Shown here in pieces: positions 9,750 to 30,921 of a stretch of 64,000 bases of DNA (positions are counted from its first letter, which is position 1; every line of letters begins with the position of its first letter). The DNA is taken from contig WHSY01000015.1 of NCBI GenBank assembly GCA_009379815.1, positions 330 through 64,329 on the forward strand, read 5' to 3'. The notes below the pieces were generated by a model, which was given only the letters and a program-made list of their open reading frames with translations, made no database searches and was not told the DNA's origin. The position numbers were made by a program, and so were the translations under genes. Source of the stretch: Pseudonocardiaceae bacterium (lineage in GTDB: Bacteria > Actinomycetota > Actinomycetes > Mycobacteriales > Pseudonocardiaceae).

Positions 9750-9773
9750 GATCTCGCCAGGGTGGAGCCATCG

Positions 9774-11126
9774 ATGCCGGACCAGTCCGCGGTGCTCGAT
9801 GATGTGCGGCGGGGCATGATCCCGGCCCACATCTACAACGATGCGGAGGTCTTCGCGCTGGAGCGCGAGCGGCTGTTCAGCCGGAGCTGGCTGTTCGTGG
9901 CCCACGAGTCCGAGATACCCCAACCGGGTGACTACGCCGTCCGGCGCGTGCTCGACGACTCGTTCATCGTCGCCCGCGACGAGCAGGGCGAGGTGCGGGT
10001 GATGTTCAACATGTGCCTGCACCGCGGGATGCAGGTCTGCCGGGCGGAGCTGGGCAACGCCTCGCACTTCCGCTGCCCGTATCACGGCTGGTCGTACCGC
10101 AACGACGGGCGCCTCGTCGGCCTGCCGTTCCACCAGGACGCCTACGGGGGTGAGGCCGGTTTCCGGCGCAAGGGCCAGACGCTGCTGCCCGCGCCGGCGC
10201 TGGACAGCTACAACGGCCTGATCTTCATCAATCTGGATGCGCAGGCGCCACCGCTGCGGGACTACCTCGGCGACTTCACCTTCTACCTGGACTACTACAC
10301 CAAGCAGTCGGAAAGCGGGATCGAGCTGCGCGGGCCGCAGCGGTGGCGGATCAAGGCGAACTGGAAGATCGGCGCGGAGAACTTCGCCGGCGACATGTAC
10401 CACACCCCGCAGACCCACACCAGCGTCGTGGAGATCGGACTGTTCCGCGAGCCCAAGGCCGCCAAGCGCAAGGACGGGGCCACCTACTGGGCCGGTGCCG
10501 GCGGCGGCACGACCTACAAGCTGCCGCCCGGCACCGTGGACGAGCGGTTGGCCTACGTGGGTTATCCGTTCGAGATGGTCGAGCGGATGAAGCAGATGTG
10601 GTCGCCGGAGCAGCTGCGGGTGGTCGGCGAGGACGGCTTCATGATCTCGGCGGCGTCGGTGTTCCCGAACCTGAGCTTCGTGCACAACTGGCCCCGCGTC
10701 GCCGACTCCGACGACGTCCTGCCGTTCATCTCGATCCGGCAGTGGCAGCCGATCAGCGAGAACGAGACCGAGGTGCTGTCGTGGTTCGCCGTCGACGCCG
10801 AGGCACCCGAGCAGTTCAAGAAGCTGTCGTACAAGGCGTACCTGATGTGTTTCGGCAGCACCGGGATGTTCGAACAGGACGACGTCGAGAACTGGGTGTC
10901 GTTGACGAGCACCGCGGCCGGCTCGATGGCGCGACGGCTGCGGCTCAACAGCCGGATGGGCCTGCTCGACGACGACACCGAGGTGACCCCGGCGTTGCCC
11001 CCCGAGCAGTTCGCCGGTCCCGGCGTAGCCCGCACCGGCTACAGCGAGGCCAACCAGCGTGAGCTGCTGCGCAGGTGGGCCGACCACCTGGAGCAGCCGG
11101 CCGGCGACGGGGCGGTGGCCCGATGA
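9774..11126 (+). CDS. Aromatic ring-hydroxylating dioxygenase, alpha subunit
   Basis: The 450-residue large subunit of a Rieske non-haem iron dioxygenase, which adds both atoms of O2 to an aromatic ring to give a cis-dihydrodiol. The Rieske [2Fe-2S] ligands are Cys81, His83, Cys101 and His104 (CLH and CPYHGWSY); the mononuclear iron site includes His210 and His215 in NFAGDMYHTPQTH. ATG 9774 is preferred over the in-frame GTG 9762 because GGTGGAG lies 6 bp upstream. It overlaps the beta subunit gene by ATGA. No ferredoxin or reductase gene is in the cluster, so electrons must come from elsewhere. The substrate is unknown; benzoate, biphenyl or phenylpropionate-like acids are possible. Confidence 0.94.
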   Translation: MPDQSAVLDDVRRGMIPAHIYNDAEVFALERERLFSRSWLFVAHESEIPQPGDYAVRRVLDDSFIVARDEQGEVRVMFNMCLHRGMQVCRAELGNASHFRCPYHGWSYRNDGRLVGLPFHQDAYGGEAGFRRKGQTLLPAPALDSYNGLIFINLDAQAPPLRDYLGDFTFYLDYYTKQSESGIELRGPQRWRIKANWKIGAENFAGDMYHTPQTHTSVVEIGLFREPKAAKRKDGATYWAGAGGGTTYKLPPGTVDERLAYVGYPFEMVERMKQMWSPEQLRVVGEDGFMISAASVFPNLSFVHNWPRVADSDDVLPFISIRQWQPISENETEVLSWFAVDAEAPEQFKKLSYKAYLMCFGSTGMFEQDDVENWVSLTSTAAGSMARRLRLNSRMGLLDDDTEVTPALPPEQFAGPGVARTGYSEANQRELLRRWADHLEQPAGDGAVAR

Positions 11127-11707
11127 GTTCCACCGACACCTACTCGTCGCGCTCACCGCTGGGTGCCCACGCGCCCCGGCAGCAGCGCACCGGCAGCACC
11201 CTGCCGTTCTCCGACGAGCGCCACCTGCTCGCCTACCAGTGGCTCGTCGACGAGACCTACCTGCTCGATGCCCAGGACTACCAGGCGTGGCTGGGGCTGC
11301 TGTCCGACGACATCCACTACCTCATGCCGGTCCGGGTGACGACCGCGCTGGGTGCGGGCTTCGACGTCGCGCCCGGCATGGCGCACTTCGACGAGGACAA
11401 GTACTCGCTGTCGCGGCGGGTCGCCCGCTTCGCCACCGAGCACGCGTGGACCGAGGACCCGCCGTCGCGGATGCGACACCACCTGTCCAACGTCCGCACC
11501 TTCGCCACCGAGGATCCCGACCACCTGGTCGTGGATTCGGCCGTGCTGCTGTTCCGCAACCGCGGTGACGTCCGCGAGTCCGCCCTGATCTCCGCGGGTC
11601 GCGAGGACCTGCTGCGCCGCACCGCCGACGGCTGGCGGCTGGCCCGCCGGACGATCCTGGTCGACGAGTCCGTGCTGCGCATGCAGAACCTCGCGATCTT
11701 CCTGTGA
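11123..11707 (+). CDS. Aromatic ring-hydroxylating dioxygenase, beta subunit
   Basis: A 194-residue small subunit with the NTF2-like cone fold of ring-hydroxylating dioxygenases. Recognisable segments are the N-terminal LAYQWLVDETYLLDAQDYQAW helix, DIHYLMPVRVT and the C-terminal WRLARRTILVDESVL strand pair. It is structural in the alpha3beta3 hexamer and holds no metal. The ATG overlaps the alpha-subunit stop (ATGA), so the two subunits are translationally coupled; an upstream in-frame start at 11075 would overlap alpha and is rejected. The stop in turn overlaps the GTG of the next small gene. Confidence 0.92.
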   Translation: MSSTDTYSSRSPLGAHAPRQQRTGSTLPFSDERHLLAYQWLVDETYLLDAQDYQAWLGLLSDDIHYLMPVRVTTALGAGFDVAPGMAHFDEDKYSLSRRVARFATEHAWTEDPPSRMRHHLSNVRTFATEDPDHLVVDSAVLLFRNRGDVRESALISAGREDLLRRTADGWRLARRTILVDESVLRMQNLAIFL

Positions 11708-11958
11708 GCCCGCTCGGCTGGGAGGAGCACACGACGGGCGAGCCGATCGTGCTCGGCAACGAGTTCTCCGAGATCACCGTCAGCCGGGTGGAGACCCGCA
11801 ACGGGTCGCGCCTGCTGATCCAGTCCCCCAAGTCGGGTCAGTGGGTGGCGCTGTGCCCGCTGGAGCTCGAAGCGCTGACGTGGCAAGGGCCGCAGACCTT
11901 CTCCGCCATGATCGGCAATCCTTTCAGCCCGCTCGTCGACGAGGAGGACGACCAGTGA
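11704..11958 (+). CDS. Small conserved-looking protein of dioxygenase operon
   Basis: An 84-residue acidic protein starting at a GTG that overlaps the beta-subunit stop (GTGA). It has no membrane segment and no Cys pair beyond one Cys (ALCPLELE), and a compact beta-strand pattern (EITVSRVETRNGSRLLIQSPKSG, then QWVALCPLELEALTW). I do not recognise a defined domain. Its locked position between the dioxygenase subunits and the dihydrodiol dehydrogenase suggests an accessory role in the same pathway, such as assembly or substrate handling. Its stop codon overlaps the first micro-ORF of the 35-bp repeat array. Confidence 0.75.
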   Translation: MSPLGWEEHTTGEPIVLGNEFSEITVSRVETRNGSRLLIQSPKSGQWVALCPLELEALTWQGPQTFSAMIGNPFSPLVDEEDDQ

Positions 11959-12098
11959 GCGCGCGAGACCTGCTTGCCAGGGTCGAGCCATGAGCGCGCG
12001 AGACCTGCTTGCCAGGGTCGAGCCATGAGCGCGCGAGACCTGCTTGCCAGGGTCGAGCCATGAGCGCGCGAGACCTGCTTGCCAGGGTCGAGCCATGA
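11955..12098 (+). repeat. Four tandem 35-bp units forming coupled micro-ORFs
   Basis: Four identical 35-bp units (11956-12095) fill the gap between the 84-residue gene and the SDR. Each contains AGGG, then 7 bp, then ATGAGC, so each is a complete translation-start unit. Starting from GTG 11955 and ATG 11990, 12025 and 12060, four micro-ORFs encode the same peptide MSARDLLARVEP. Each stop overlaps the next start as ATGA, and the last stop overlaps ATG 12095 of the SDR. The peptide may be meaningless and the array a coupling device; a related single copy is at 26578-26649. Confidence 0.85.
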
Positions 12099-12880
12099 GC
12101 GGCTGGCTCGAGGGCAAGCGGGCGCTCGTGGTGGGCGCGGGCTCGGGCATCGGCCGCGCCGTGGTGGATGCGTTCCGCGCCGAAGGTGCCCGGGTGGCCG
12201 TCCTCGAACGCGACCCCGGCAAGTGCGAGGCACTGTCGGCCGCGCTGCCCGACGTGCCGGTCGTGGCGGGCGACGCGACGACGCGGGAGGCCAACGATCG
12301 GGCGGTCGCGGCCGCCGTCGAGGAGTTCGGCGGCCTGGACGTGCTGGTCAACTGCGTCGGGATCTTCGACTTCTACCAGGGGATCGGCGATCTCGACGTC
12401 GACCGCATCGACGACGCGTTCGACGAGATCTACCGCGTCAACGTCAAGAGCCAGCTGCACGCGGTCAAGGCCGCGTTGCCCGCCCTGCGCGAAGCCCGCG
12501 GGACGGTCCTGCTGACCGAGTCGACGTCAGCCTACTACTCGGGCCGCGGCGGCGTGCTGTACGTGTCGTCCAAGTTCGCCGTCCGCGGGCTGGTCACGGC
12601 GATGGCCCACGAACTCGCCCCCGACATCCGGGTCAACGGCGTGGCCCCCGGCGGCACCCGCGACACCGACCTGCGGGGGCCGGCCAGCCTGGGCCTCGAC
12701 ACCCGCCGCCTCGACGACACCCCCGGCCGCGACGCCGACCTCGCCGCCCGCACACCGCTGGGGGTCGCGCTGTCGGGTGCCGACCACGCCGACAGCTACG
12801 TCTTCCTCGCCTCCGACCGTTCCCGCGGCATCACCGGCGGCGTCGTCCACCCCGACGGGGGTATCGGCATCAAGGGCTGA
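12095..12880 (+). CDS. cis-Dihydrodiol dehydrogenase (BphB-like SDR)
   Basis: A 261-residue SDR that resembles the cis-dihydrodiol dehydrogenases of aromatic degradation (BphB/HcaB type), which oxidise the dioxygenase product to a catechol with NAD. The cofactor motif is VGAGSGIG (13-20), and Tyr156 and Lys160 are catalytic (GVLYVSSK). The family-specific stretches FDFYQGIGDLDVDRIDDAFDEIYRVNVK-type helix, NGVAPGGT, DLRGPASLGL and the C-terminal HPDGGIGIKG are all present. ATG 12095 is the last start of the 35-bp repeat array, so its translation probably depends on coupling through the micro-ORFs. No ring-cleavage extradiol enzyme follows directly. Confidence 0.9.
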   Translation: MSGWLEGKRALVVGAGSGIGRAVVDAFRAEGARVAVLERDPGKCEALSAALPDVPVVAGDATTREANDRAVAAAVEEFGGLDVLVNCVGIFDFYQGIGDLDVDRIDDAFDEIYRVNVKSQLHAVKAALPALREARGTVLLTESTSAYYSGRGGVLYVSSKFAVRGLVTAMAHELAPDIRVNGVAPGGTRDTDLRGPASLGLDTRRLDDTPGRDADLAARTPLGVALSGADHADSYVFLASDRSRGITGGVVHPDGGIGIKG

Positions 12881-25324: not shown

Positions 25325-26581
25325 TCAGCGCGCGTCGAGCTGCACTGCGTCGTCGAACTGCACTGGCAGCGACAGCAGGCCGCGGGACAGCAGCACCGCA
25401 TGCCAGTGCAGCGGTTCTGCCGTCAGCCCGAGGCCGGGCAGTCGCTGCAGCGCTCGGGGGATCGCGATGGCGGCCTCGAGCCTGGCCAGTGGTGCGCCGA
25501 GACAGTAGTGCGGGCCGACGCCGAAGCCGAGCCGGTGGCCCTGCCGTCGGGTGAGGTCGAGCCGGCCGGGGTCGTCGAACACCGCCGGATCGCGGCTCGC
25601 GGCCGCGGGGCTGAGGAAGACGCGGTCGCCGCGGCCCAGCGTGCGCCCGCGCAGCTCCACGTCGGCGGCCATCAGGCGGACCACGGTCTTGGCGGGACCG
25701 TCGTAGCGCAGCACCTCCTCCACCGCCAAGGCCGCCGTAGCCGGGTCCGCCTCGAGTGCGGCCCGCTGGTCGGGGTGCTCCAGCAGCGCGAGCAGCCCGT
25801 TGCCGATCAGGTTGGTGGTGGTCTCGTGCCCGGCGAACAGCAGCAGCACGCCGGTGGAGATCACCTCGTCGTGGCTGAGCGCATCACCCTCGTCGCGGGC
25901 GCTGATCAGTGCGGAGAGCAGGTCGTCGGCCGGTTCCTGCTCGTGCGCGCGCACCAGGTCGGACAGGTACGCGGTGAGCTCGGCCATGCCGTTCGCCCCG
26001 CCCGCGTACCGGTCGGGGTCGCCCATCCCGCCGAACACCAGCCCGGTGATCTGGTCGGACCAGTCCTTGAACCGCTCCCGGTCTTCGCGCGGCACGCCCA
26101 GCATCTCGGCGATCACCGACGCAGTCAGCGGGTAGGCGAAGTCGGAGATGAGGTCGGCCCGGGTGGATCCCCGGGACGTCACCGCGTCGAGTAGCTCATC
26201 GGCGAGCTCGGCGACCCGGGGGCGGATCCGCTCGACGGCCCGCGGAGTGAACGCGCTGGTGAGCAGCTTGCGTAACCGGGTGTGGTCGGGCGGGTCCTTG
26301 AATACCATCCAGTTCTCGAGGACGCCGAAGGCGGAGCGGACGGCGGGGTCGGTGCCCGGGCCGTCGAGCTTGGCCCGCCGGTAGGGCGAGATGCGGTCGG
26401 AGGAGTAGCGCTCGTCGCGCATCGCGCCGGACACGTCGTCGAACCGGGTGATGAACCAGGAGCGGTACTTCTCGCTCCAGTGCACCGGGTCGTGCTCGCG
26501 CAGGGCGGCGAAGTGCGGGTACGGGTCGGCGACCGCGTCGTCGCCGAGCAGGTCGACGGAGGCGAGGTCAACGGTGCTCAT
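25325..26581 (-). CDS. Cytochrome P450
   Basis: A 418-residue soluble class I P450. The I-helix oxygen-activation motif is AGHETT, the K-helix ExxR is EEVLR, and the haem loop FGVGPHYCLG places the Cys ligand at 360. It uses electrons from ferredoxin and reductase that are not encoded here. It is the third gene of a minus-strand operon with a DUF35 protein and a thiolase, a set often seen in sterol or side-chain degradation in actinomycetes, so a steroid- or terpenoid-like substrate is plausible. Its ATG overlaps the stop of a 23-codon micro-ORF that links it to the thiolase. Confidence 0.95.
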   Translation of the reverse strand: MSTVDLASVDLLGDDAVADPYPHFAALREHDPVHWSEKYRSWFITRFDDVSGAMRDERYSSDRISPYRRAKLDGPGTDPAVRSAFGVLENWMVFKDPPDHTRLRKLLTSAFTPRAVERIRPRVAELADELLDAVTSRGSTRADLISDFAYPLTASVIAEMLGVPREDRERFKDWSDQITGLVFGGMGDPDRYAGGANGMAELTAYLSDLVRAHEQEPADDLLSALISARDEGDALSHDEVISTGVLLLFAGHETTTNLIGNGLLALLEHPDQRAALEADPATAALAVEEVLRYDGPAKTVVRLMAADVELRGRTLGRGDRVFLSPAAASRDPAVFDDPGRLDLTRRQGHRLGFGVGPHYCLGAPLARLEAAIAIPRALQRLPGLGLTAEPLHWHAVLLSRGLLSLPVQFDDAVQLDAR

Positions 26582-26649
26582 GGCTCGACCCTGGCGGCAT
26601 CCATGGTGCGACCCTGCAAGCAGGTCCCACGCAGGTCTCGCGTGTTCAC
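26578..26649 (-). CDS. Coupling micro-ORF related to the 35-bp repeat
   Basis: A 23-codon frame starts at a GTG that overlaps the thiolase stop (GTGA) and ends at a TGA that overlaps the P450 start (ATGA). The peptide begins MNTRDL and ends ARVEP, matching the MSARDLLARVEP peptide of the 35-bp repeats at 12 kb, and the DNA GCCAGGGTCGAGCCATGAGC is shared exactly. It looks like two decayed repeat units. It probably serves ribosome hand-over between genes; whether the peptide has a function is unknown. Confidence 0.65.
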   Translation of the reverse strand: MNTRDLRGTCLQGRTMDAARVEP

Positions 26650-27773
26650 GGCGCCTCCAGGACGGTGATGACGCAGGCGTTGCCGTCCAGGCCGGACACT
26701 CCGCCGCCCATGGTCTCGACCAATCCGAGCCGTGCCCGGTCGACCTGCCGGGCGCCGGCCTCGCCGCGCAGCTGCCAGACGATCTCGGCGAGCTGGGCCA
26801 GCCCGGTCGCGCCGAGCGGGTGTCCCCGGGAGAGCAGGCCGCCGGACGGGTTGACCGGGTGTGCCCCGCCGAGCGCGGTCACGCCCTCCGTGGCCGCCTT
26901 GCCGCCCTCGCCCGCGGGCACGAGCCCGAGCGCCTCGGTGGTGACGATCTCGCCGATGGTGAAGGCGTCGTGCACCTCCGCCACGTCGACGTCGGTGGCG
27001 GCCGCGAGGCCTGCGGCGGCCAACGCGTCGGCGGCGGTGTCGCGGACGATGTCGTGGCCCCAGACGTGGGGGCTGCGGTGATCCCAGGGCTGTCCGGAGC
27101 GCATCGCGACGCCGCGGACCGTGACGTGGCGGGCGTCGCGTGCCGCCGGGCCCAGCACCGCGGCGGCGGCCCCGTCCGAGGTGGGGCAGCACTGCAGCAG
27201 CGTGAGTGGGTCGGCGATCATCCGGGACGCCAGCACCTCCTCGACGGTGTAGCGGCCCGAGTACTGCGCCCGGTCGTTGTGCAGCGCGTGCGCGTGGTTC
27301 TTCACCGACACCGCCGCCAGCTGCTCCGGCGTCGCGGTGCCCAGGTGCAGGTAGCGGGCGGCCGCCATGGCATAGAGCGCGGGCAGCGCCAGCCCGGCGC
27401 GGCCTTCCGGGTCGGTGGGCTCGGGGTGGATGGCACCGTCGAACGCGGTGCTCAGCTGCTCCAGCCCGAGCGCGAGCACCCGCCCGTAGCGGCCGGTCCG
27501 CACCGCCTCGTGCGCCTCGGCGAACGCGGTGGTGCCGCTGGCGCAGGCGTTCTCCACCGTGACGACGGGTATCCCGGTGATGCCCATCGCCCGCAGCACG
27601 CGCTGGGCCACCCCGGGCGGGCCGAACACCGTGCCCACCCAGACGGCGTCCACGGCCGACACCGCGGCGTCGGCGAACGCCTCGCGCACCGCGTCCCAGG
27701 CCAGCGCGACCAGGTCGCGGTCCGGCTGGCGGCCGAAGTGCGAGGTCCCGACACCGTGCACGGCGACATCCAT
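26646..27773 (-). CDS. Thiolase family protein (acetyl-CoA acetyltransferase / lipid-transfer type)
   Basis: A 375-residue thiolase-fold enzyme. The nucleophilic Cys is in VENACASGTTAF, the catalytic His in SRGHPLGATG, and the C-terminal Cys in NACVITVLE. This subgroup includes SCP2-type thiolases and the Ltp-type aldolases that, with a DUF35 partner, cleave C-C bonds of steroid side chains by retro-aldol or thiolytic reaction. The DUF35 partner gene is immediately upstream with an ATGA overlap, which strongly supports a hetero-complex. All usual thiolase residues appear present, so thiolase activity is the simplest assumption. Confidence 0.92.
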   Translation of the reverse strand: MDVAVHGVGTSHFGRQPDRDLVALAWDAVREAFADAAVSAVDAVWVGTVFGPPGVAQRVLRAMGITGIPVVTVENACASGTTAFAEAHEAVRTGRYGRVLALGLEQLSTAFDGAIHPEPTDPEGRAGLALPALYAMAAARYLHLGTATPEQLAAVSVKNHAHALHNDRAQYSGRYTVEEVLASRMIADPLTLLQCCPTSDGAAAAVLGPAARDARHVTVRGVAMRSGQPWDHRSPHVWGHDIVRDTAADALAAAGLAAATDVDVAEVHDAFTIGEIVTTEALGLVPAGEGGKAATEGVTALGGAHPVNPSGGLLSRGHPLGATGLAQLAEIVWQLRGEAGARQVDRARLGLVETMGGGVSGLDGNACVITVLEAP

Positions 27774-29619: not shown

Positions 29620-30759
29620 GTGGAGATCACCGAGGTGAGGGGCTACCCGACGTCGTTTCCGGTGCCACCGGGTTCGGCGGTGAGCCTGGGCATCGGCCGG
29701 ACCGTCAAGCGTGACGCGGTGGTCGTGAAGGTGACCACCGACGAGGGGCTGGTCGGATACGGCGAGGCCCACCACGGCCGCGCCCCGGGGCCGATCGCGC
29801 ACCTGGTCAACACCACGCTGCGAGGGCTCGTCCTCGGCCTCGACCCGACCGACACCGTCGGCGTCTGGGACCGTGTCTACCGAAGCCAGCTCGCCAGCCA
29901 CGGGATGGGCGCGGCGGCCTCGATGGCGCTGTCCGGTATCGACATGGCGTTGTGGGACATCCGCGGCAAGGCCGTGGGGTGGCCGCTCTACAAGCTCCTC
30001 GGCGGCAGCGCGCGGCCGGTACCGGCCTACGCGGGTGGCGTCGCGCTGGGCTACCAACCGCCCGAGGCCCTGGTCGACGAGGCCCGCGCGCTCGTCGAGC
30101 AGGGCTACGCCGCGGTCAAGCTGCGAGTGGGCGACACCCCGGTCGACGATCTCGCGCGGGTCGGTGCGGTCCGGAACGGCATCGCGGACGGCACCGAGAT
30201 CCTCGTCGACGCCAACACCGGCTACACCCTGGCCGATGCGCGCCGGGTCATGCCCGAGCTGGACAGGCTCGGGGTCGGCTGGCTGGAGGAGCCGTTCCCC
30301 GCCCACGACCACCGCAGCTACGCCACGGCGGTCGGGTTCGGCACCGTGCCGCTCGCTGCGGGGGAGAACCACTACACGCGGTTCGAGTTCCACCGGCTCG
30401 TCGCCGACGGGGTGGTCGGGATCCTGCAGCCCGACCTGTCGAAGGCCGGTGGGGTCACCGAGGTGTCGCGCATCGCGGCACTCGCGTCGGCCTGGAAGCT
30501 GCCGATCCACCCGCACACCTCGATGACCGGGATCAACATGGCGGCCACCATCCACCTGCTCGCGTCGATCGACAACGGCGGTTACTTCGAAGGCGACGTG
30601 TCGCACAACAACCTGTTCCGCGACGAGCTGACCTCCACGCCGTTCGAGCTGGGGCCGGACGGCTGTGTCCGCCCGCTACCCGGCCCGGGGATCGGGGTCG
30701 AGGTCGACGAGGACTTCCTCGCCGCGCACCCGGTCATCGAGGGCCCCGGTTACGTGTGA
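29620..30759 (+). CDS. Mandelate racemase/muconate lactonizing enzyme family protein
   Basis: A 379-residue enolase-superfamily enzyme that abstracts a proton alpha to a carboxylate. The N-terminal capping domain ends near residue 120; the barrel shows YAAVKLRVG (catalytic-strand Lys), then metal ligands in VDANTGY, LEEPF and AAGENHY, and the C-terminal IHPHTSMTG with His. The residue set fits racemase, dehydratase or cycloisomerase members; the exact reaction is open. GTG 29620 follows AAGGGGA. It is 126 bp after the luciferase-like gene and may be co-transcribed with it. A strong 19-bp hairpin follows. Confidence 0.9.
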   Translation: MEITEVRGYPTSFPVPPGSAVSLGIGRTVKRDAVVVKVTTDEGLVGYGEAHHGRAPGPIAHLVNTTLRGLVLGLDPTDTVGVWDRVYRSQLASHGMGAAASMALSGIDMALWDIRGKAVGWPLYKLLGGSARPVPAYAGGVALGYQPPEALVDEARALVEQGYAAVKLRVGDTPVDDLARVGAVRNGIADGTEILVDANTGYTLADARRVMPELDRLGVGWLEEPFPAHDHRSYATAVGFGTVPLAAGENHYTRFEFHRLVADGVVGILQPDLSKAGGVTEVSRIAALASAWKLPIHPHTSMTGINMAATIHLLASIDNGGYFEGDVSHNNLFRDELTSTPFELGPDGCVRPLPGPGIGVEVDEDFLAAHPVIEGPGYV

Positions 30760-30827
30760 GCCCGAGTCGGTGTGAGCCGGAGTCGCCCGCCCGCGGCGCG
30801 TGGCTTCATCGGCCTTGCTCACACCTC

Positions 30828-30907
30828 CAGCGGCCCGAACCCCGTTCTGGTTCCGAAACGGGGTTCGGGCCGCTGCAAAACCCCGTTCCGGTTCCGAATC
30901 GGGGTTC
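30828..30907. repeat. R1 hairpin pair with 19-bp perfect stem (probable terminator)
   Basis: The first unit sits inside a perfect 19-bp inverted repeat (30828-30846 with 30857-30875; loop CTGGTTCCGA). The second R1 unit is 30879-30907. The pair closes the transcription unit ending at 30759 and repeats the elements at 2062 and 6562. Confidence 0.8.
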
Positions 30908-30921
30908 GGCCGCTCTTCCGC

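Follow-up and report, generated by a model that had tools for sequence, protein, structure and literature searches.

MIRU are described, in the review PMC12548453, as dispersed repeats that occur in tandem at some loci and sit at start codons, that carry an ORF of their own coupled at a spacing of -4 nt to the gene that follows, and that appear mobile with minimal impact; the same review describes how a short upstream ORF can hand a ribosome to the next gene. Units of 40–100 bp are given for M. tuberculosis in PMC2734929, and MIRU are also described in PMC4128351. REP sequences, as portrayed in PMC3733652, are palindromic repeats of 20–40 bp, present in many copies and often downstream of genes, that sometimes supply a stop codon and sometimes lie inside genes. 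That paper also reports in-frame insertion of RPE into genes of likely functional proteins, and the CGTC families, including RPE-4 and RPE-6, are said there to lack a dedicated transposase. The element described below works like a non-autonomous mobile repeat of these types, resembling MIRU at gene junctions and RPE or REP within genes and at stop codons. As its unit length and host differ from those of MIRU, and the tags of REP and the Y1 transposase are missing, we file it under none of them.

In the window, by which we mean the whole 64,000-nucleotide stretch of DNA analysed, an array of 35 bp units lies between an 84-aa ORF and an SDR dehydrogenase gene (Table 1). An earlier note on this DNA had described four identical micro-ORFs made by a 35 bp tandem repeat, and this is borne out both by Tandem Repeats Finder, which reports 4.2 copies at period 35 with 100% matches and, at 292, the top score of 51 rows for the window, and by reading the sequence, which also confirms that each unit holds AGGG, a 7 nt spacer and ATGAGC and that its stop overlaps the next ATG. 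All four micro-ORFs read (V or M)SARDLLARVEP*, and the AGGG that precedes each ATG lies within the 3′ arm of the hairpin described below. The ends of the chain are as the note gave them, with the GTG at 11955–11957 overlapping the TGA at 11956–11958 that closes the 84-aa ORF, the TGA of the last micro-ORF overlapping the SDR ATG at 12095, and 4 nt overlaps along the whole chain. The 39-mer made of one unit and the next ATGAGC occurs four times, and is present in 0 of 100 dinucleotide shuffles. Because 35 is -1 modulo 3, any number of units keeps the chain and its 4 nt overlap, and the claim that self-contained units can change in copy number without breaking the chain is thus supported by the sequence, as it is by 9 of the 12 junctions with an RTGA directly after the element (see below). 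The chain may keep translational coupling in vivo. The window's own genome (G000) is a 5.4 Mb draft of 733 contigs, so the number of units in the array may be wrong.

Table 1. Coordinates of the array, its predicted ORFs and hairpins, the neighbouring genes and the window's other junction with elements of this family
Feature	Position	Strand	Basis or remark
Rieske dioxygenase alpha subunit gene	9762..11126	+	Pfam PF00355, PF00848
Dioxygenase beta subunit gene	11123..11707	+	Pfam PF00866
84-aa operon gene upstream of array, stop within GTGA	11704..11958	+	no Pfam match
35 bp tandem array, 4.2 perfect units	11956..12101	+	Tandem Repeats Finder
Predicted micro-ORF 1, GTG start, 12 codons + stop	11955..11993	+	read from sequence
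Predicted micro-ORF 2	11990..12028	+	read from sequence
Predicted micro-ORF 3	12025..12063	+	read from sequence
Predicted micro-ORF 4, stop overlapping SDR start	12060..12098	+	read from sequence
Hairpin core 1 of dispersed repeat	11963..11989	+	model R1, 46 bits; single-strand fold -10.3 kcal/mol
Hairpin core 2	11998..12024	+	model R1 window search
Hairpin core 3	12033..12059	+	model R1 window search
Hairpin core 4	12068..12094	+	model R1 window search
SDR dehydrogenase gene, hcaB-like	12095..12880	+	Pfam adh_short families; Rhodococcus counterpart annotated hcaB
Second family junction: 23-codon ORF, element nested in another's loop	26578..26649	-	GTGA...ATGA chain

The flanks of the array junction have no match in the five other genomes of the family that were searched. 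A plasmid search with the locus matched 45 records, 0 of them covering more than 80% of the query, and we read the junction in four plasmids, those of Rhodococcus DK17, R. opacus S8, R. jostii RHA1 and strain JS3073. In all four the same two genes share an ATGA directly, with no array between them; the upstream gene closes with GAA TGA and its neighbour opens with ATG ACT GGC TGG CTC, while the window has GAC CAG TGA and ATG AGC GGC TGG CTC with 140 bp (4 x 35) between the two RTGA. This comparison is based on junctions and translations read directly, the alignment program having misplaced the upstream part; the ATGA overlap is annotated in the DK17, S8 and RHA1 plasmids, and the JS3073 record carries no annotation. 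By eye, the translation of the 84-aa ORF resembles that of the 'hypothetical protein' before hcaB in Rhodococcus. The neighbourhood differs in the Pseudarthrobacter defluvii plasmid, where a ferredoxin gene follows the hypothetical protein, and in the Microbacterium sediminis plasmid hcaB has a different upstream gene. Relative to the Rhodococcus junction the array looks like a 140 bp insertion, Rhodococcus belonging to another family, so that the array-free state is that of an outgroup and not of a sister strain.

The direct overlap in Rhodococcus means that coupling by overlap needs no array, and this bears on the proposal that the array is an adaptive and adjustable coupling device, selected as such, with the number of units setting the ratio of dehydrogenase to dioxygenase. 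We regard this as quite unlikely, notwithstanding the perfect chain with AGGG at 7 nt in every unit and the presence of a second 35 bp ATGA array at G000:C722:72334, as the genes overlap without an array in the four plasmids, copies of this element are also found across unrelated genes, at stop codons and in the interior of proteins, and the identity of the units suggests recent amplification. The adjustable hand-over device of the earlier note is supported in so far as its units keep frame and are self-contained. An origin as a device of this operon is not supported, given the array-free overlap in the four Rhodococcus plasmids and the dozens of other places, stop codons, starts and in-frame sites without relation to this operon, where the same hairpin occurs.

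Searches of the same genome and of its relatives reveal this dispersal. The 30 nt core has one further occurrence in G000, a single copy with 1 mismatch at C410 that has ATGA on both sides and lies between genes we take to be an SDR gene and an mftF-like gene, and a looser pattern search turned up an in-frame form with two copies where a gene that is presumably tsaD begins. The cleanest count comes from the main 26 nt variant, GAGACCTGCTTGCAGGGTCGA, which is found with up to 3 mismatches in 21 positions 40 times in G000 and 30 times in its congener G001 (reversed control 0 and 0), and the covariance model R1 gives 56 and 50 matches respectively at E up to 10. Family-wide, a pattern allowing up to 3 mismatches in 23 matches 57 of 297 genomes (14 with the reversed control), the multi-copy genomes of this search falling in genera g1, g3, g17 and g19; tandem pairs of exact core halves occur in 14 of 390 (reversed control 2), some of which (G317, G224) are probably chance; and the covariance model search finds the element in 13 of 390, with copy numbers that are at least those seen among the best 16 candidates per genome. 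Among 394 genomes of the class, a set that by manual count includes only 3 of this family, G000 alone has the main core at up to 2 mismatches. Exact core matches are present in the Pseudonocardiaceae MAG Dino_bin31 and in Pseudonocardia bannensis DSM 45300, the latter with a tandem array of the element. Viral contigs hold no exact match to either core form. The four core strings are absent from the open-licence literature searched, where no title among the matches listed names such a family, and a comparison of seven loci, including the window array, with Rfam gave no match at the gathering score and four weak ones irrelevant to the element.

A plain local tandem duplication of the linker, involving no dispersed element, would account for the perfect identity of the four units, but it is already contradicted by the core at C410 with its 1 mismatch and by the numerous sites where variants of it occur, in two species as well as in other genera, and we consider it hardly credible. 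We think it very likely instead that the array arose by tandem amplification from one copy of a small hairpin element, which is dispersed and found at TGA-containing sites. The window itself contains the second junction listed in Table 1, which lies between a thiolase-like gene (26646–27773) and a P450 gene (25325–26581) and whose inner core alone has an E of 0.011 in an unfiltered window search; six further matches in that search, with E from 0.31 to 0.96, are taken as chance.

In the folded core a short lower helix is followed by an internal loop of 2 x 2 (GA/GA), a 5 bp stem and a loop of 7–8 nt; the stem may have either a bulged G or a U-G pair at its top. In a set of 45 distinct cores, taken from the 8 genomes with at least 3 hits, all 11 pair cells changed on both sides stay paired (mean 0.83 and maximum 4 in 2000 shuffles), and of 5 cells changed on one side only, 4 break the pair; related sequences enter these counts more than once. 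As alignment A1 was picked by hand its pair counts are biased, and the count on 45 cores is the fairer one. In 56 other distinct cores, many of which are probably chance matches, two-sided changes are paired in 6 of 8 cells and one-sided changes break the pair in 35 of 49. Single hairpins fold slightly better than shuffles (z -0.9 to -1.4) and the RNA fold of the whole array is not better than shuffles (z -0.26), so that the case for the structure is made by the covariation.

Merging array members and dropping matches with E of about 0.2 or more reduced the 106 covariance model matches in G000 and G001 to 63 places, around which ORFs were called by codon usage. The element's own TGA serves as the called upstream stop at 16 places; 14 have it within a sense ORF (the weakest of these may be chance); it lies at 6 inside an antisense ORF and at 2 at an ORF start, and at 7 the next called gene begins directly after it. 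One place falls in two of these bins and 19 fall in no strict bin, among them the window array, since there the next gene comes only after the last unit. Two antisense matches, at G000:C44 and G001:C23:6087, fall within long ORFs whose flanks are similar, and both may be due to chance. Two loci, L073 and L086, carry the element in frame in what is apparently the same gene, which we take to be uvrC, in both species of the genus; the similarity of their flanks suggests that this insertion probably predates the split of the species. At L012 and L113, the start of the tsaD-like gene (a name we assume), each species has a different form of the element.

These distributions bear on whether the hairpin is a functional dispersed RNA element, that is a selected protein-binding or stability signal of the mRNA at gene ends and junctions rather than a selfish repeat. 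The compensatory changes in the stem (in the 45 cores, and in the hand-picked A1 as well) count in favour of such a signal, as do the use of its own TGA as a stop and the majority of places with a sense ORF touching or near (54 of 63, against 8 with an antisense ORF only). Insertions in frame inside ORFs, antisense copies, and presence in one species with absence from another of the same genus all argue the other way, and a TGA target could by itself produce the sense bias. On balance this explanation seems to us unlikely.

An RTGA follows the element directly at 12 places, and in 11 of these the frame is open through the core, with an in-frame start within 40 nt upstream at 9. The predicted ORFs at these junctions include (V/M)SARDLLARVEP, MSARDLLVRVEP, (V)SARDLRVRVEP and MSARSLLVRGEQ, and the frame is still open where elements are nested (G001:C10, G001:C119:27720 and window 26578–26649). 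Since open frames are common at 70% G+C, we take these micro-ORF frames as weak, supporting evidence. At one of the 9 (G001:C81:58466) the called upstream ORF runs through the element, and in the 34 bp copy at G001:C120 the core is not open in the frame that ends in ATGA; both results go against our reading. The element is like MIRU in occupying many loci, at some of them in tandem, and in a putative internal ORF that overlaps the downstream gene by 4 nt at 9 of 12 junctions. It differs from MIRU in that its units are of 33, 34 or 35 bp (a few of 32) and not 40–100 bp, and in having a covarying hairpin core and further sites at stop codons and, in frame, within ORFs, a distinction drawn from the published description of MIRU. 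Compared with coupling by a single short upstream ORF, here the ORF is made by a dispersed repeat, and several stand in a row.

Comparison with relatives provides further insights into how the element came to occupy its sites. The flanks of 28 sites served as queries against six genomes, and 15 sites were aligned with 20 stretches from relatives, where the element is seen in one species and absent from another of the same genus. There is a single gap of 33 bp at G001:C113 (in frame, against three empty relatives) and at G000:C722:32102 (two relatives), a single gap of 66 bp at G000:C199 (two relatives), and a single gap of 34 bp at the start codon at G001:C120 (one relative), with ATGAGTAGCG flanking the core on either side. 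At G000:C13 and C299 the gaps, each against one relative, measure 90 and 87, both multiples of 3, and G001:C49 has a gap of 36. The alignment is partial or unclear at 8 of the 15 sites (G001:C54, C12, C96, C119:10289, C38, C103, C10 and C119:27720), of which C103 nonetheless shows a 33 bp gap. Direct repeats flanking the element are clear only at a small number of sites and are not constant in length, which counts against the explanation favoured here. The element is like RPE in its in-frame insertion relative to empty relatives (single gaps of 33, 33 and 66 bp), but unlike RPE, which are found in Rickettsia, it occurs also at RTGA junctions and stop codons, with units of 33–35 bp, in Pseudonocardiaceae.

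With REP the element shares a short imperfect palindrome in many copies. Unlike REP it has no conserved tag, GTAG being present on the element strand within 8 bases of a core end at 1 of 63 places and CGTC at 6 of 63, and the arrays observed are direct tandems. A Y1 transposase (RAYT-type, IS200/IS605-type) is found in 0 of the 2 genomes of the genus (G000, G001) and is absent from 11 of 12 carrier genomes, although drafts may miss a gene; the sole carrier with matches is G124 (L251–L253). Membership of the REP/RAYT system was considered, and is ruled against by the lack of a conserved GTAG or CGTC tag and of Y1 in 11 of 12 carriers.

The element consists of a core of 26–27 nt and a spacer of 6–8 nt, giving units of 33–35 bp and a few of 32. 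Arrays of the 26 nt core in G000 and G001 mostly have a period of 33, with one of 32 at C210. For the 27 nt core the period is 33 in the in-frame array of the tsaD-like gene, 35 in the two ATGA-coupled arrays (the window and G000:C722:72334, which has two units of another core variant), and 34 at G079:C73 and G101:C182, where the arrays follow a TAA and so are probably outside coding sequence. Length by context fits selection on reading frame, on the evidence of these few arrays, but against this a period of 35 is found downstream of a called stop at G001:C43:46385–46446, where there is no frame reason for it, and 27-nt-type cores have a period of 33 at G079:C16. The G079:C73 and G101:C182 arrays (L056 and L059, genus g3) have 5 and 4 units and similar upstream flanks, and the letters of their spacers vary from one genome to the other while being nearly uniform inside an array, a pattern like that of concerted evolution.

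A plausible history for the window locus is that one copy of the hairpin element entered a 4 nt RTGA overlap that the 84-aa and SDR genes already shared, by a single insertion that was later amplified. The TGA would have been its target. RTGAGCG now stands on either side, with a stop/start overlap at each end, as if the site had come to flank the element on both sides and the old stop/start pair had been copied. Given a length of -1 modulo 3 and an open frame, the inserted stretch could then have become a 12-codon ORF able to keep coupling, and amplification would have multiplied the stop/start pair, each duplication of a unit again keeping coupling. In this model a ribosome from the 84-aa gene would restart at each micro-ORF, opening the hairpin whose AGGG precedes the following ATG. 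Some ribosomes may be lost at each relay, and more units may therefore lower SDR output, some effect of unit number being predicted.

It is possible, although we hold this only tentatively, that these features together define a new 'translation-transparent' mobile element, with a hairpin of about 27 nt, no known transposase, a TGA target, and length classes suited to where a copy lies, 33 bp for copies in frame and 35 bp for those at ATGA junctions, that leaves operon translation intact and acts as a coupling dial. If so, both insertion and tandem growth would spare the translation of the operon and offer such a dial. The case shows, for one genus, that a tiny repeat can spread through gene-dense operons with stop/start overlaps and frames kept, and the question posed is how a hairpin of 33–35 bp moves in genomes in which a RAYT-type transposase was not found. 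With filled and empty sites at hand, translational coupling could be tested directly over 0 to 4 relays.

The window also holds a 41 bp tandem repeat at 30838–30914 (1.9 copies, 91% matches), the unit of which contains AACCCCGTT and AACGGGGTT. It adjoins a 16 bp tandem repeat at 30754–30785 and by eye is unlike the 35 bp unit.
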